Assembly: GCA_031286205.1 (NCBI GenBank)
Contig: JAITUR010000019.1
Span: forward strand, 1-50,688
Reading direction: 5' to 3'
DNA from: Treponema sp.
GTDB taxonomy: Bacteria; Spirochaetota; Spirochaetia; Treponematales; Breznakiellaceae
DNA length: 50,688 nucleotides
The notes under the pieces were generated by a model. That model worked only from the letters and a program-made list of their open reading frames with translations. It made no database searches and was not told the origin of the DNA. Shown one piece after another: positions 44,689 through 50,688 of this stretch. The stretch's first letter is position 1; each line of letters opens with the position of its first letter. The translations under genes were made by a program, and so were the position numbers.

Positions 44689-46047
44689 ATGGCTGAAAAA
44701 TCAACAATTATGCAATCAGATTTAAGCGGTAAGGATGGAGCGCAGCTTCACTCTCGTTATAACCCCCAGTTGGAAGCTGTACGATATATATCGTCCCTGT
44801 CATTAAACCCCAATACAGAATATTTTATTTTAATAGAGCCCGGAGAGGGCTACATGATACCTGTCTTGCAGGAAAAGTTTCCAAACAGTAAAATAATCGC
44901 TCTTTATGTTAACGATCCTGAACCGGAAGAAAAACTGGATAAAGAATTAACTCTTAACACATTGCAGCAAAACACCCCCGCCATAAAAATAATTGAATGG
45001 CGTCCTTCCATGAATTACTATAAAGATGCCTATGTAAAACTTTTATCTAAAACAGTTAAATATGTAAAAAGGTTCGAAGCAGAAAAAAGAACCGTAAGTT
45101 TTTTTGGAAAACGATGGGTAAATAATTTTTTTAGAAACATAGGCAATATTAATTCCGCCCTTCTTTACAAAAAAACCGATATTCCCGTTATTATTACAGG
45201 TTCCGGCCCTTCTTTGGAATCTGCCCTTTTGGATATAAAAAAGATTCAGGAAAACTGCCTGATTATTGCGGCATCTTCATCTGTAATGGCGCTTGGGCAT
45301 AACGGCATAAAACCTGATCTTGTAATTGCCACAGATGGCGGCGGCTGGGCTGTAAAACATTTATATCCTTTTTACAGATATTATGGAAATAATACCGGAG
45401 GGCTTGCCATTACATTGTGCGCCGCCCTTCCCTCTCAATGTTATAACACACCTGCATTATTGCTAAACGACGGCAGTTTGTGGCAAAGTGTTATTTTGCA
45501 CGAATTGCAATTACCTTCTGTTTTAATTCCCCAAAGGGGGACAGTTACCGCAAGCGCAATAGATCTTGCTTTGCAGCTTACAAGCGGAAATATATACCTT
45601 GCGGGTTTAGACCTTGCAGTAAATGATATACAAACCCATATAAAACCTTATGTATTTGACAATATGTTTTTGGAAAAATCGACAAGGTATTCTCCTTTAT
45701 ATTCGCAATATTTTACAAGATCAAGTTTAATAAAAGAAGGCGGCAGTATGGATATTTATGCCGAATGGTTTAAAACTCAGTACGGCTTATGGCCAAAACG
45801 AATTTACAATTTAAATGATTACAGCGGGCAAGCGTTAAAAAAAACAGGCGAATATTTTAAAAATGTCCCTGTCAGATGCAAAAACGGCATAGATATATTG
45901 CTTGCTGCCTTAAAAAACTCAATACACGAAAAAGATTTAAGAGCGGAACTAGAACCATTACTGGGCAAGGATATAGAAAATTATCTGTCTTCTTTGCACG
46001 CCTTAGCAGCCTCACACCCTGATGCCCCGCAAGGAAGTATAAATTGA
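44689..46047 (+). CDS. DUF115 / Maf-like protein, copy 1
   Basis: A 452-residue protein of the DUF115 (MptE-like Rossmann) family. FGKRWVNNFFRNIGNI precedes PVIITGSGPSLESAL and GHNGIKPDLVIATDGG, the family core. Such motility-associated factors are linked to glycosylation of flagellin in several bacteria. It overlaps the next gene by 4 bases; the two are diverged paralogues sharing FGKRW..N..RNI. The donor sugar and target are not visible. Confidence 0.8.
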   Translation: MAEKSTIMQSDLSGKDGAQLHSRYNPQLEAVRYISSLSLNPNTEYFILIEPGEGYMIPVLQEKFPNSKIIALYVNDPEPEEKLDKELTLNTLQQNTPAIKIIEWRPSMNYYKDAYVKLLSKTVKYVKRFEAEKRTVSFFGKRWVNNFFRNIGNINSALLYKKTDIPVIITGSGPSLESALLDIKKIQENCLIIAASSSVMALGHNGIKPDLVIATDGGGWAVKHLYPFYRYYGNNTGGLAITLCAALPSQCYNTPALLLNDGSLWQSVILHELQLPSVLIPQRGTVTASAIDLALQLTSGNIYLAGLDLAVNDIQTHIKPYVFDNMFLEKSTRYSPLYSQYFTRSSLIKEGGSMDIYAEWFKTQYGLWPKRIYNLNDYSGQALKKTGEYFKNVPVRCKNGIDILLAALKNSIHEKDLRAELEPLLGKDIENYLSSLHALAASHPDAPQGSIN

Positions 46048-47543
46048 TTAAGTATTCATTTCTTACCGCAAAAAACGGCAGCATTGTTCCTGCTTTACTC
46101 CAACCTTGCGGAAATACAAAACCGCTTCATTCAACGATAGACCCTGTACGGGAAGCTCAAAAATTACTTGCGACAATCCCCGAAGATACAGGTTTTATTG
46201 TTTTTTTGGGGCTTGGCGGAGGTTTCGCTCCCCTTGCCGCTCTGGACAGCGGAGCCAGGGTTGCGGTAATAGATTTTGACAAATCTGCCGTAAACCAACT
46301 TCTTGCTTCTAAAGATTATTCCCAGCTTGTAAATAATCAAAATTTTACACTTTTAACGGATCCGGCAAATGGAGAGATTCAAAATTTTATTCTTAACAAC
46401 TACAAACCCGCTATTCACGGCGGTATAAGAATTTTTCCCCTTAGAACAAGAACGGATCAAGATAAAGAATTATTCGAAGCTGCCGCGGCGGAAATTCAAA
46501 AAGCGATAGAAAACACCGGCGGCGATTACAGTGTTCAGGCTTATTTTGGAAAACGATGGTTCTGCAATATTATCCGTAATATTGCAAATTTCCCCAATAA
46601 CGAAGCGTACAATTTCTTTTCCAAATATATTAAAGATGCGGCTATTGTTGCGGCAGGCCCTTCCCTTGACACGCAAATAGAAGAGCTTGCAAAACATAAA
46701 ACACGCGGTACTTTTATTATTTGCTCTGACACTGCAATAGGTGTTTTATTGCATAATGGTATAAAACCGGACGCTGTTGTTTCTATTGATTGTCAGCATA
46801 TAAGTTATTTTCATTTTTTGGGGTACAATATTTCCGGTATCCCGTTAATTTTGGATATTGCAAGTCCGCCCATGCTTGGCTTATTTTCTTCCGCCCCTTT
46901 ATGGGTTGCAAGCGGCCACCCTCTTGCCCGCTATCTCTGCGCAAAATGGGCAGCGCTTCCTTGCTTGGATACATCCGGCGGTAATGTTACCTATGCCTGT
47001 TTATCATTGGCAGAAAATCTTGGCGCGCAAAATATAACCCTTTTTGGCGCGGATTTTGCGTATGCGCAAAACAGAACTTATGCCAAAGGGACTTATGTAT
47101 ATCCGTATTTCGAAAAAAAGCAAAACCGCTTTGCAAGTTTGGAAGCGCAGTTGTCTGCGTTTTTGTATCGTAATCCTTTTTTACCTGCAGAACCGGGGCA
47201 AAAATACAAAGAGACAGCGCAATTAAAATTTTATAGAAATAAACTGGAAGAAAAAACGGGTATAACTATTATGCCAGGGCAGGGAAAACCGGTTCAAATT
47301 CTATTATCTGCGAACAAAAAGGTCCAAGAAACACAGAATTTAATAAAACAAGGCTGTTCCCCCATAGAATTTTTAAATAATTACCGCAAAGATATAACCG
47401 CCGCCGAAACAAACAGCGAGGTTTTTACTACCCTGCTCCCGTACGCCGCGTTTATTAAACATAGAAATCCCGGATTAAAAGGCAAAGATTTAATCGAAGA
47501 AACAAAACAATGCTGCATAGAGGAAATTGATAGGGTGATCTAG
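46044..47543 (+). CDS. DUF115 / Maf-like protein, copy 2
   Basis: The protein has 499 residues. It starts with TTG (46044-46046) in a 4-base overlap with copy 1. It has an N-terminal region resembling a nucleotide-binding fold (TGFIVFLGLGGGFAPLAAL), then FGKRWFCNIIRNIANF, AIVAAGPSLDTQI and LHNGIKPDAVVSIDCQH of DUF115, and TLFGADFAY. Likely partner in the same surface or flagellin modification step as copy 1. It is the last gene before the AT-rich cassette region. Confidence 0.8.
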   Translation: MIKYSFLTAKNGSIVPALLQPCGNTKPLHSTIDPVREAQKLLATIPEDTGFIVFLGLGGGFAPLAALDSGARVAVIDFDKSAVNQLLASKDYSQLVNNQNFTLLTDPANGEIQNFILNNYKPAIHGGIRIFPLRTRTDQDKELFEAAAAEIQKAIENTGGDYSVQAYFGKRWFCNIIRNIANFPNNEAYNFFSKYIKDAAIVAAGPSLDTQIEELAKHKTRGTFIICSDTAIGVLLHNGIKPDAVVSIDCQHISYFHFLGYNISGIPLILDIASPPMLGLFSSAPLWVASGHPLARYLCAKWAALPCLDTSGGNVTYACLSLAENLGAQNITLFGADFAYAQNRTYAKGTYVYPYFEKKQNRFASLEAQLSAFLYRNPFLPAEPGQKYKETAQLKFYRNKLEEKTGITIMPGQGKPVQILLSANKKVQETQNLIKQGCSPIEFLNNYRKDITAAETNSEVFTTLLPYAAFIKHRNPGLKGKDLIEETKQCCIEEIDRVI

Positions 47544-47768
47544 GGGTTGGAGGTTGTGTGGTGATCCTGCAGGCGGGGCAACTAATTGACGCGGAAAACG
47601 CGGGAATTTTAACTTCTTCGGTTTCTTTGATTTATTTAAATGATTGAAATTATAAAATACCCTATATAATTACACTAGATGGTTTTTGGTATTTTGTTAA
47701 AAGGTGTTCATAAATTTGTACATCACGAGCAAGAAAGCAGCAAAATGTAATCAATATGGTTTTTGTAT
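47544..47768. other. Intergenic boundary between chromosome core and cassette array
   Basis: No gene is seen. CGCG-GAAAA-CGCG (about 47591-47603) is a weak hairpin. The composition turns AT-rich here. GGTATTTTGTTAAAAGG (about 47689-47705) vaguely resembles the right end of the attC-like sites and might be a worn remnant. Confidence 0.4.
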
Positions 47769-48314
47769 TTATCGAAAAAAAATTTTAATTTCTGATATTG
47801 CAATTTCTGCTGCTAAATCATTTGGATATCCAAAAACTCCCGTGCTAATACATGGAAATGCCATAGATTTAACAATATCGTTAAGTCCTGTTGGAAAATG
47901 TTTAATTATAAATGCGCCTGTTGCGCTACGGTTATCATTAAGGCATGGACTATCAAATGTATCGTTAATAGGAAGTACAATAACTTCATGTTTGTCACAA
48001 GAAATATTCGCTAAATTATCATTTACAAATTGGATAGCATGTTCTTTCCCAATGTTTACCACAAATCCTTTTCCTAATTTATCAATTTTAACCTGTTTTA
48101 AATGTATTTGCCACCTTACAAGATATATAATTAATAAAATGATACCAAGAGAGAGTAACCAAAAATTTGGGGGTTTTTGAAGTGAAAAAACAGGTTGGAG
48201 TTGTTTAATAAACGAAAGTAAACTGACCCCTATTGCTAAACATAACAATATTTTGTCTTCACTTTCTGCAAAAAAATACTTAAAAAATATATCATTTATC
48301 CCCTTTATCTCCAA
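47769..48314 (-). CDS. Membrane-anchored macro-domain-like protein, probably decayed (cassette gene)
   Basis: A 181-residue frame starting at TTG (48312-48314). Two hydrophobic helices (about 22-65) precede a macro-like part: VIVLPINDTFDSPCLNDNRS then MAFPCISTGVFGYPNDLAAEIA. Between them the middle of a macro domain (~60 residues) is missing, and the two halves look like different macro subfamilies joined. The end is frameshifted at eight As (47775-47782, plus strand); removing one T from the coding run would continue IFFDKYKNHIDYILLLSCS to 47723. Membrane-macro proteins include effectors of some antiviral systems, but here the gene seems broken. It lies at the distal end of the cassette array. 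Confidence 0.6.
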   Translation of the reverse strand: MEIKGINDIFFKYFFAESEDKILLCLAIGVSLLSFIKQLQPVFSLQKPPNFWLLSLGIILLIIYLVRWQIHLKQVKIDKLGKGFVVNIGKEHAIQFVNDNLANISCDKHEVIVLPINDTFDSPCLNDNRSATGAFIIKHFPTGLNDIVKSMAFPCISTGVFGYPNDLAAEIAISEIKIFFR

Positions 48315-48460
48315 CTTAAAGATAATTCTCCAAGAATGAAATTATCATATATTCATAAAAATATGGGTTTCAGTCAAATATACCTATTCTTGGGGAAAAA
48401 CCCTATCTGATCTATTATTTCAATAACATTTTTATATTTATTTTGAATTTTTTGCATATC

Positions 48461-48636
48461 GCATAACGTTCTAGGCAACTGACGTTTTTTTGTGCCCGAT
48501 AAGGAAAATACGCAGTATTTTACGGGCACAAAAAATGTGGCGGAGAGAAAATCCCACAAAGGCGTTTACGCCGACTGGGATTTTTCGGAGCCCAAAATGC
48601 CCGAATAGGGCATTTTGCAGTTACCGTTTGTTAGGC
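48461..48636 (-). other. attC-like recombination site 1
   Basis: A 176-bp site from GCATAAC to GTTAGGC. Inside lie three hairpins with TGTGGCGGAG between the first two. Terminal arms GGCAACTG and CAGTTACC pair with one mismatch. Confidence 0.8.
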
Positions 48637-48650
48637 GAAGTAAAATCTTT

Positions 48651-48965
48651 TTATTCTACACTTTTAAAATTGAAATTCGTTATTTTCCAAGTGTCAAATT
48701 CTTTTATTCCAATCACATTAACTCTAAACATACCATTTGTGCTAATTACTCTGAAACTCATGTTTGCATTACCGCTATTGCCACTCGTAGATATACTTCC
48801 ACTAATAAATCCTTTTTGCCTTATTTCATCTCCAATTATTTCTTTTAATTCCACATTTATTGCCATTTCCTCAAATGCCATTTTATATATTTCAGAAGTT
48901 TTAAATATATTTTGCAATAACACAAAAAATGAAAAACAAAAAACTATAATCGCTCCACCAATCAT
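48651..48965 (-). CDS. Coa1/Tim21-like small membrane-anchored protein (cassette gene)
   Basis: The protein has 104 residues. One N-terminal membrane helix (GGAIIVFCFSFFVLL) is followed by a small domain: LKEIIGDEIRQKGFISGSIS, GNSGNANMSFRVI and FDTWKITNFNF. This matches the pattern of the Coa1/Tim21-type domain. Function in bacteria unknown. It overlaps the preceding gene by 4 bases, so the cassette carries a two-gene unit. Confidence 0.65.
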   Translation of the reverse strand: MIGGAIIVFCFSFFVLLQNIFKTSEIYKMAFEEMAINVELKEIIGDEIRQKGFISGSISTSGNSGNANMSFRVISTNGMFRVNVIGIKEFDTWKITNFNFKSVE

Positions 48966-49273
48966 GCATATTCTAAAAACAACTTGTTTTTTGTTATTTT
49001 TTGGGGTGGAATTGTTATACTTGATTCTTCAAATTCATTATTACATCTTTGACAATATTTTGCATATTTTTTATTTCTTTCAGCACATTTTGAACATATT
49101 TTTAATCCAGGCAATAAGCAAATGATTGTCATTACAACTAATCCCCACATAGGAAATATGCCAATCCACATAAGGTGTGGAGAAATATTTTTCTTTTTTG
49201 CCATTTTAACACCAATAATAATCGGCAAAATCCATATAATAAATACTATCAAAATAATGATTATTGCTTCCAT
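48962..49273 (-). CDS. Two-helix membrane protein with zinc-ribbon cysteines (cassette gene)
   Basis: The protein has 103 residues. Hydrophobic segments at about 2-24 and 34-56, then ICSKCAERNKKYAKYCQRCNNEF, a four-Cys zinc-ribbon-like motif (two CxxC). Not recognised further. First gene of a cassette that begins at attC-like site 2 and ends in site 1; it overlaps the Coa1-like gene by 4 bases. Confidence 0.65.
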   Translation of the reverse strand: MEAIIIILIVFIIWILPIIIGVKMAKKKNISPHLMWIGIFPMWGLVVMTIICLLPGLKICSKCAERNKKYAKYCQRCNNEFEESSITIPPQKITKNKLFLEYA

Positions 49274-49350
49274 AAATTAATTTTATGCATTAATTAGTTT
49301 TCTGTCAATACCATATACCATTAATTTTAAGTAAATTCTGATTTTATTTC

Positions 49351-49523
49351 GCCTAACGTTCTAGGTATATGACGGTTTGGGCAGGTAATAGGGCAATGCG
49401 TAGCATTGACCCCTGCCCAAACTGTGGCGGAGACAAAATCCCACAAAGGCGCTTGCGCCGACTGGGGTTTTGCGTAGCCTGAACCGCCCGAATAGGGCGG
49501 TGAGCATATACCGTTTGTTATGT
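49351..49523 (-). other. attC-like recombination site 2
   Basis: A 173-bp site from GCCTAAC to GTTATGT. Terminal arms GGTATATG (49363-49370) and CATATACC (49505-49512) pair perfectly. Three internal hairpins as in the other copies. Confidence 0.8.
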
Positions 49524-49537
49524 GCAGTTAGGCATTT

Positions 49538-50221
49538 TTATCTATTTCCTATTCTACGAATTATTTTTTCTCTACTATCATATATTATAGAATTCGTTCC
49601 ACTAAATTTCTTAAATATACTTATTCTAATAATAAAATATTCTTCTGACACTTCTACGAGATATATTTTCATGTTTTTATTTTCTTTCATCAAAATAGAA
49701 ATATTATTGATATCAATATTATTACCAGAAATTTCATACATACTCTCAATTTTATTAACAATAATATATAAATCTTTTTCAATAATATTTCTGTTAATAT
49801 TTGTGTAAATAATTCCAATAAATGAAAATAGCAATGAAAATAATAATAAATAGTTTAAAATATGATTTATTTTATTTTTTATAGATAATATTATCGTAAT
49901 AATACAAAATATAAAGCAAAATATCCATATACAAAATACTAAGAAAAATACAATTAGGTTTCCTATTGAAAATATTAATGATAAAAATGAGAAAAATATA
50001 ATTAAAAATATAGAAATAACCGAAGGATAAAAAGAAAAAAAGTCTGATTTAATTATTGACACTATAAGAGAAATAATTGAAATAACAATACAAATGCCCC
50101 ATACTAGCAATATAAAAAAAGAATCATTATTTTTTAATAAAATAATAAATAAAAATATTAACGCACATAAAAAAAAGGAAAATAATGGATTTATGAAATA
50201 TTTCAATATTTTATTTATCAT
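49538..50221 (-). CDS. AT-rich multi-pass membrane protein (cassette gene)
   Basis: The protein has 227 residues; four or five hydrophobic helices fill residues ~8-150, then a soluble end of about 75 residues (LYIIVNKIESMYEISG to EKIIRRIGNR). Extreme Ile/Phe/Lys/Asn content reflects its low GC, unlike the core genes. Unknown family. It is the single gene of a complete cassette between sites 3 and 2. Confidence 0.65.
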   Translation of the reverse strand: MINKILKYFINPLFSFFLCALIFLFIILLKNNDSFFILLVWGICIVISIISLIVSIIKSDFFSFYPSVISIFLIIFFSFLSLIFSIGNLIVFFLVFCIWIFCFIFCIITIILSIKNKINHILNYLLLFSLLFSFIGIIYTNINRNIIEKDLYIIVNKIESMYEISGNNIDINNISILMKENKNMKIYLVEVSEEYFIIRISIFKKFSGTNSIIYDSREKIIRRIGNR

Positions 50222-50299
50222 ATATAATCATCTATAATATAATATTTTCTATATTTTGTCAATAGAAACAAATTAATTATCTATATTTTGCCTAATTGC

Positions 50300-50473
50300 A
50301 CATAACGTTCTAGGTATATGACGTTTTTATAGCCCGGATAAGCGAAACCGAAGGTTTTGCAGGGCTGTAAAAATGTGGTGGAGCAAAAACCCACAAAGGG
50401 CGATAGCCCGACTGGGTTTTTGTGGAACCCGAACCGCCCGAATAGGGCGGTGAGCATATACCGTTTGTTAAAT
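50300..50473 (-). other. attC-like recombination site 3
   Basis: A 174-bp site from ACATAAC to GTTAAAT. Same terminal arms GGTATATG/CATATACC as site 2; three internal hairpins with different stem sequence but the same pairing. Confidence 0.8.
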
Positions 50474-50499
50474 GACGTTGGGGCATACGCCATTATTTT

Positions 50500-50688
50500 T
50501 TATTCGATTATTTTTCCGTCTAGCATTACTTTCATTTTTCCTTGTCTGATTAATTCACTTGTTTCATTTGAACAATATAGGCAATCTTCATTTTTTCCAT
50601 AAATAATATATTCAACGTTACTATTTATCTTCATGTATTCATTGATGTATTTTTTGGCCGATTCTAATGAGTCATGTATTGAATATAT
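50500..50688 (-). CDS. Partial small cassette gene, CxxC protein (5' end beyond window)
   Basis: Open from the right edge for 62 codons, ending at TAA (complement 50500-50502). The fragment has a helix (SLESAKKYINEYMK) then DCLYCSNETSEL with one CxxC, ending MLDGKIIE. Not recognised. Its position before attC-like site 3, and its orientation, mark it as the gene of the next cassette. Confidence 0.6.
   Translation of the reverse strand: MYSIHDSLESAKKYINEYMKINSNVEYIIYGKNEDCLYCSNETSELIRQGKMKVMLDGKIIE

Follow-up and report, generated by a model that had tools for sequence, protein, structure and literature searches.

In classical integrons, the recombining strand of the attC site is the bottom strand. 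These sites recombine in single-stranded form, with extra-helical bases docked by the I2 helix of the integrase IntI (PMC7790495). I2 counts as the innovation that enabled integrons, needed for cassette capture and absent from other proteins (PMC7790495), and the insertion has been called essential for integron function (Smyshlyaev 2021, PMC8138268). The closest described systems are the integrons of Treponema denticola, T. succinifaciens and T. brennaborense; the same source, in the text available, reports no integrons in termite-gut Treponema (Wu 2013, PMC3607928). Here we analyze a 50,688-nt stretch of a Treponema sp. draft genome (contig JAITUR010000019.1, the window), whose right end is, in our judgment, quite probably the distal end of a chromosomal cassette array belonging to an integron-like system. 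This system would be run by an integrase without the additional, I2-bearing domain or patch (“patch-less”).

Cassette array at the end of the window

The window spans contig C76 in full; the draft genome it belongs to, G000, comprises 2.34 Mb in 126 contigs and is 94.5% complete. Between 47.7 and 50.7 kb, three attC-like sites are interleaved with small minus-strand genes, and two complete cassettes are present. The sites, whose coordinates run from TAAC to GTTA, measure 173–176 bp when a few flanking bases are counted, as the initial annotation had proposed, and share a mean column identity of 84% over aligned stretches. Gene direction and site polarity place the array head past the right end of the contig. 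In the feature list, which runs from the head side outwards, position 11 is counted from the G of GTT, and A/G denotes A in the cassette start against G in the reverse-complemented cassette end.

50467–50688, minus strand: partial cassette, 3′ part, next towards the array head; its start lies beyond the contig
50500–50688, minus strand: open reading frame (ORF) in the partial cassette, open, 62 aa visible
50303–50470, minus strand: attC-like site 3 (TAAC ... GTTA)
49517–50306, minus strand: complete cassette, 790 bp, ends 17/18 matched, A/G at position 11
49538–50221, minus strand: its gene, 227 aa, hydrophobic by eye, without Pfam match at E ≤ 0.1
49354–49520, minus strand: attC-like site 2
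48630–49357, minus strand: complete cassette, 728 bp, ends 17/18 matched, A/G at position 11
48962–49273, minus strand: its gene 1 of 2, 103 aa, with a weak zinc-ribbon match under the curated cut-off
48651–48965, minus strand: its gene 2 of 2, 104 aa, Coa1 family PF08695 (39.1 bits, cut-off 22)
48464–48633, minus strand: attC-like site 1, farthest from the head among the clear sites
47696–48467, minus strand: distal element, with a clear cassette start at 48467
47769–48314, minus strand: gene of the distal element, 181 aa, Macro domain PF01661 at residues 148–172 (26 bits, cut-off 22)

In both complete cassettes, A/G at position 11 is the sole mismatch between the 18-nt ends. The cassette at 49517–50306 starts with GTTATGTGCAATTAGGCA and its reverse-complemented end is GTTATGTGCAGTTAGGCA; the corresponding sequences at 48630–49357 are GTTAGGCGAAATAAAATC and GTTAGGCGAAGTAAAATC. 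The reverse-complemented end of the partial cassette at 50467–50688, GTTAAATGACGTTGGGGC, has G at position 11. An end search in the distal element gave no clear cassette end: a candidate decayed end at 47696 matches at 11/17 positions, and a second position also scores 11. Rfam returned no match at gathering thresholds over 44.0–50.7 kb of the window, and the IntI model TIGR02249 had no match on contig C76.

The sites, cassettes and polarity, together with the integrase that heads arrays in relatives (below), bear out the initial annotation of this region as the distal end of an integron-type cassette array in a Treponema-like spirochaete. It had given each complete cassette its own matched ends, which hold over about twice the 8–9 nt it stated, and had all genes pointing one way, in keeping with the likely genes here all lying on the minus strand. 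We dropped the idea that the cassette at 48634–49357 is common to other members of the family, as only weak partial matches were found, in 2 other genomes of 195.

Integrase-then-array order in single-contig relatives

In G047, a single-contig genome of the same family (4,646,109 bp), the match to the patch-less gene lies at 3518834–3520063 on the plus strand, and the first cassette starts at 3520225, ∼150 nt past its stop codon. Cassettes in this genome were defined by attC half-site motifs alone, with complementarity unused, which yielded 39 cassettes over 39 kb (3520225–3559597), with attC lengths of 133–154 and a median cassette of 775 bp; the half-site was missed at two places. The longest ORF is on the sense strand in 38 of the 39 cassettes, and no site was found in the 20 kb before the array or in ∼94 kb after it. 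Position 11 is A/G in 38 of 39 cassettes and A/T in the remaining one. A cassette's own ends agree at frequencies of 0.92–1.00 at positions 12–16 and of 0.77, 0.74, 0.64, and 0.54 at positions 17–20, compared with 0.27–0.32 at positions 13–16 for mispaired ends; position 12 is nearly fixed (0.90 in mispaired ends). The array also includes very short (∼164-bp) near-repeated cassettes, below typical gene size, at 3548015–3548479 and 3552641–3552804 of G047:C1.

The same order of integrase and array is seen in G179 (single contig, 4,059,867 bp). There, a 1278-bp cassette is present twice, ∼25 kb apart, with 1275/1278 identical positions, an identical 146-bp attC in each copy and unrelated neighbouring cassettes on both sides. 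Because the copies sit among unrelated neighbours, the mobile unit would be exactly cassette plus attC and, judged from these sequences, units move at these cassette boundaries. One G179 stretch compared against plasmids gave no match. Across relatives, the recombinase gene lies just upstream of an attI-like junction and is transcribed towards the array.

A recombinase lacking the additional domain

Neither G000 nor any of the 39 genomes of the genus exceeds the curated TIGR02249 cut-off, nor do any of 11 genomes picked as carriers of the patch-less gene, whereas 80 do so in a sample of 390 genomes from the order. On contig C89, G000 encodes a tyrosine recombinase (369 aa from the chosen start) that TIGR02249 matches on either side of the additional domain, with no match within it. 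A recombinase match of this kind occurs at E ≤ 1e-30 in 21/39 genus genomes, and the patch-less protein at E ≤ 1e-70 in 69/195 family genomes.

In alignments, the patch-less recombinase keeps the catalytic residues, and the patch region (∼41 residues) is gone. The GKGxKxR-to-HxLRH spacing is 107 in 20 canonical IntI versus 61–72 in 100 patch-less proteins (70 in L122), a pattern that did not read 3 of 80 named loci and 1 of 24 genus loci; one canonical locus, L179, carries an additional recombinase with a spacing of 66. Against VchIntIA (2a3v), the match ends at residue 179 and resumes at 241, so that VchIntIA 180–240 has no counterpart. The NCBIfam model NF040815 (archaeal XerA type) ranked top for four of five proteins scanned, exceeding its cut-off in one. 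Patch-less proteins also have a ∼100-residue N-terminal extension (e.g. L119:3010–4176), for which Pfam gave no separate match in five proteins and whose likeness to the N-terminal part of canonical Treponema IntI would be weak at best (hhalign probability 11%). A quick 75-row tree groups 11 Treponematales IntI in one branch and, in a separate branch, the proteins of the genus along with three from named Treponema (Shimodaira–Hasegawa-like approximate likelihood ratio test, SH-aLRT, 100 for each), with three Xer-like G000 proteins apart on long branches. The array recombinase is related to both IntI and XerA and lacks the I2 or additional domain.

Across 195 family genomes, patch-less gene and site-2-like DNA are both present in 43, the gene only in 26, sites only in 44, and neither in 82 (Fisher p 0.0003, without correction for relatedness). 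G177, a single-contig relative and one of the 11 genomes picked above, keeps site-2-like DNA, and its patch-less genes look shortened or split (G177:C1, ∼1987505–1988536 and 3779645–3780245). A total of 303 plasmid records match protein L181, 25 of these 303 being listed, with identity <60% in all. The 723 nt behind the patch-less gene of C89 (L104, 1–723) contain GGAGAACGGAGAACGG-type short repeats in tandem, and the contig ends before any matched cassette start.

Cassette-end pairing in patch-less and canonical arrays

We compared these ends with those of arrays downstream of patch-bearing IntI, using 84 motif-defined cassettes from ten canonical loci, which include probable T. denticola and T. 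succinifaciens (the latter from coordinates in PMC3607928). Canonical ends agree at frequencies of 0.76–1.00 at positions 1–8; from position 9 they agree no better than mispaired ends, and none has A/G at position 11. A complementarity search in 20 canonical loci gave seven pairs, none of them A/G, versus six in the shuffled control. Overall, A/G occupies position 11 in 102 of 111 matched pairs from three sets of patch-less loci, versus 0 of 7 canonical pairs.

Among 65 patch-less-type Treponema pairs, agreement is 0.91–1.00 at positions 12–18 and drops to 0.46 at position 19; at positions 13–18, it is 0.91–0.97 within a cassette versus 0.27–0.41 between cassettes. As these pairs were selected by complementarity and then by A/G (65/69), the motif-defined G047 set carries particular weight.

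Sites and cassette ends elsewhere in the genome

Used as a query, site 2 matches 25 pieces on 14 contigs of G000, several of them at contig ends. The end-pair search required ≥14/16 matches, with position 11 excluded from the score and 2-mer-shuffled sequence as control. Over 153,759 bases of G000 it found 11 pairs versus two in the control, with A/G at position 11 in 10 of the 11; over window positions 1–47000 it found none. Compared by eye with relatives, some G000 cassettes start after attI-like rather than attC sequence (e.g. C118, 58342). Because sites and cassettes are dispersed, G000 seems to hold several arrays or scattered cassettes. In locus L043 (G000:C98, ∼1258–1266), TAACAAAC precedes a cassette start with almost no attC between them, as if the attC had shrunk to its outer boxes.

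Distribution among named genomes

Scanned with the genus alignment, named genomes yielded at least 589 matching stretches, of which the best 80 loci were kept. These include Treponema metagenome-assembled genomes (MAGs), a Nitrospirae MAG, Firmicutes, many Bacteroidota, and archaea. In the best 80, 42 pairs pass the search, 37 of them A/G (shuffled control 7), with pairing that fades beyond position 15. At least one A/G pair occurs in 23 of these 80 loci, including Saccharibacillus kuerlensis DSM 22868, Paenibacillus, Flavobacterium, Algoriphagus, Pontibacter, Arundinibacter, and Fusibacter; the A/G end rule stands beside patch-less recombinases in Firmicutes, Bacteroidota, and a Nitrospirae MAG. 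The archaeal loci among the best 80 have no A/G pair, and the protein family is therefore probably mixed in function.

A matched A/G cassette start lies ≤1500 nt downstream of 16/77 named and 9/23 genus recombinases (25/100); the downstream sequence is shorter than 1200 nt for a further 16/77 and 6/23, respectively. In two Flavobacteriales MAGs (L225, 8936–11841; L233, 8973–11556), the first cassettes have identical 36-nt starts and ends, and their interiors align at 55%.

Proposed mechanism and predicted folds

We infer that the patch-less integrase recombines the cassettes, excising and inserting them as folded single bottom strands. A free circular cassette would re-form a 15–18-bp outer stem from its own two ends. 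The bottom strand would then be the more stable substrate, because its position 11 forms a G.T pair, against an A.C mismatch in the top strand. The long cassette-specific stem with its wobble may in this way take over the strand choice that I2-docked extra-helical bases make in classical integrons. Within the array, each site would combine parts of two cassettes, and the outer stem of such a chimera would be weaker.

Energy prediction is compatible with a bottom-strand hairpin with R and L stems at the attC-like sites. When the window cassettes were circularised in silico, the bottom strand formed an unbroken outer stem through position 18, including G.T at position 11, with predicted energies for bottom versus top of −61.5 versus −53.0 and −55.4 versus −54.7 kcal/mol; the chimeric integrated sites were weaker. 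In G047, the bottom strand of the circular sites was predicted to be more stable in 36/36 cases (mean −50.5 versus −43.4 kcal/mol).

Weighing the alternatives

Several observations weigh against the proposed system. Contig C89 ends 723 nt past the patch-less gene, and in the assembly the window array has no physical link to its own integrase. Of 29 end motifs in G000, only 9 find a start with ≥15/18 matches; of those without such a start, several are at contig ends and the remainder look decayed or spurious. Despite ≥1200 nt of downstream sequence, 45/77 named and 8/23 genus recombinases have no matched cassette. One of the two window cassettes shows little energy difference between its strands (the −55.4 versus −54.7 kcal/mol above), and canonical T. 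denticola-type cassettes also favour the bottom strand (53/59, −28.5 versus −27.1). At least one L-box bulge was present in 95/95 aligned canonical sites (14/109 not aligned), and patch-less sites were mixed, with no bulge in 36/56 and at least one in 20/56 aligned sites (40/96 not aligned), for which reason bulges were dropped as a clean discriminator. Finally, I2 is regarded as necessary for the capture of cassettes on the basis of laboratory work (PMC7790495).

Three other explanations were considered. The array may be real yet a remnant moved in trans, by another recombinase or an outside IntI, with the patch-less gene a passenger. The absence of an integrase from the window's contig, the spread of sites over 14 contigs (some without matched starts), the reported activity of IntI on diverse attC (PMC8618304), and the patch-less genes found without a matched cassette nearby would all fit. 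This explanation is nevertheless improbable, since the gene directly precedes the first cassette in G047, in G179, and in 25/100 recombinase loci, and the position-11 rule accompanies the patch-less gene, not canonical IntI. Less probable still is an ordinary Treponema chromosomal integron whose canonical IntI is missing from the assembly. Its attC-like sites and array polarity would be those of integrons, such integrons are known in Treponema (PMC3607928), and the gene could be missing because the genome is 94.5% complete. Against this stand the IntI model counts (0/39 genus versus 80/390 order genomes), the patch-less gene at the array heads of relatives, and the differing cassette-end rule.

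Dispersed mobile repeats (miniature inverted-repeat transposable elements or repetitive extragenic palindromic elements) flanking genes by chance could account for copies on 14 contigs of one genome. Fixed, gene-independent terminal repeats of this sort are contradicted by ends that agree within a cassette and not between cassettes, both in the 65 Treponema pairs and in the 39 motif-defined cassettes of G047, making this the least credible explanation. The dispersal of sites also concerns the initial annotation, which named as its refutation the lack of an integrase in the replicon together with sites scattered outside any array without matched ends. Half of that picture was found: similar sites lie on 13 other contigs, many without a matched start, which counts against the annotation, and others with matched cassette ends, which counts for it.

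The preferred reading, an array run by a patch-less integrase, draws on sequence features, namely array anatomy, integrase-then-array order, the absent domain, long end pairing, near-universal A/G, and one cassette-plus-attC duplication. We give about even chances to the broader proposal of a second integron kind in at least Spirochaetota, Bacillota, Bacteroidota, and Nitrospirota, in which an I2-less XerA/IntI-like recombinase would capture folded single-stranded cassettes, with substrate and strand set by a cassette-unique 15–18-bp stem and near-universal G.T at position 11 rather than by extra-helical bases. Such a kind may represent either an I2-less precursor of IntI or a solution that arose independently. 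Long arrays under an I2-less relative make the I2 requirement directly testable, and patch-less arrays offer a natural comparison for the choice of recombining strand.

Other features of the window

Two neighbouring plus-strand genes (452 and 499 aa, 44689–47543) adjoin the array; we take them to resemble motility accessory or DUF115-type proteins. The half-site search also caught a repeated motif, TAACGAACGAT, with a similar upstream flank at ∼21919, 22612, and 23083, probably internal repeats of a gene and unrelated to the array.

Comparison with known systems

An open-access literature search without preprints, covering titles and abstract starts, gave no account of patch-less integrase arrays or 18-nt cassette ends. 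The integron-like subgroup of simple tyrosine recombinases (Smyshlyaev 2021, PMC8138268) is not linked, in the text available, to cassette arrays or an end rule. XerA/Xer recombinases likewise have no I2 domain, and NF040815 is the top match here; they differ from the patch-less proteins, which head arrays and carry an N-terminal extension. A position at multi-cassette arrays argues against chromosome dimer resolution at a single dif site as the only role of the patch-less gene.

The contig formally fits a cluster of attC sites lacking integron-integrases (CALIN), with at least two attC-like sites and no recognised intI. It differs in that relatives have a head integrase, which the IntI model scores below its cut-off; CALIN is a label of detection, not of mechanism. 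The origins given for CALINs in the available text of PMC8618304 do not include a patch-less integrase, and neither this source nor the portions at hand of the IntegronFinder 2.0 (PMC9024848) and archaeal integron (PMC9668308) papers name one as a CALIN source. If the proposal is true, many clusters filed as CALINs may be patch-less integrase arrays. Long arrays under an I2-less relative also suggest that IntI-based searches can take complete arrays for integrase-less clusters, in phyla thought to be integron-poor.

The three Treponema integrons named at the outset (PMC3607928) resemble the system described here in being chromosomal spirochaete arrays with hairpin attC and an integrase transcribed towards the array. 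The kinship with the T. denticola integron that the initial annotation suggested found no support: that type combines an IntI bearing the additional domain with 8-nt end pairing and no position-11 rule, in contrast to the missing patch and 15–18-nt pairing here. With IntI integrons in general, the system shares complementary R-box ends, attC tiling, and genes pointing mostly one way, with pairing longer than canonical; integrase, attI-like site and array are found together in relatives, while the window's own head lies off the contig. The additional domain (patch, I2 helix) has no counterpart by alignment, spacing, or comparison with 2a3v. As far as sequence can tell, the system is integron-like by anatomy, without one defining feature of IntI.

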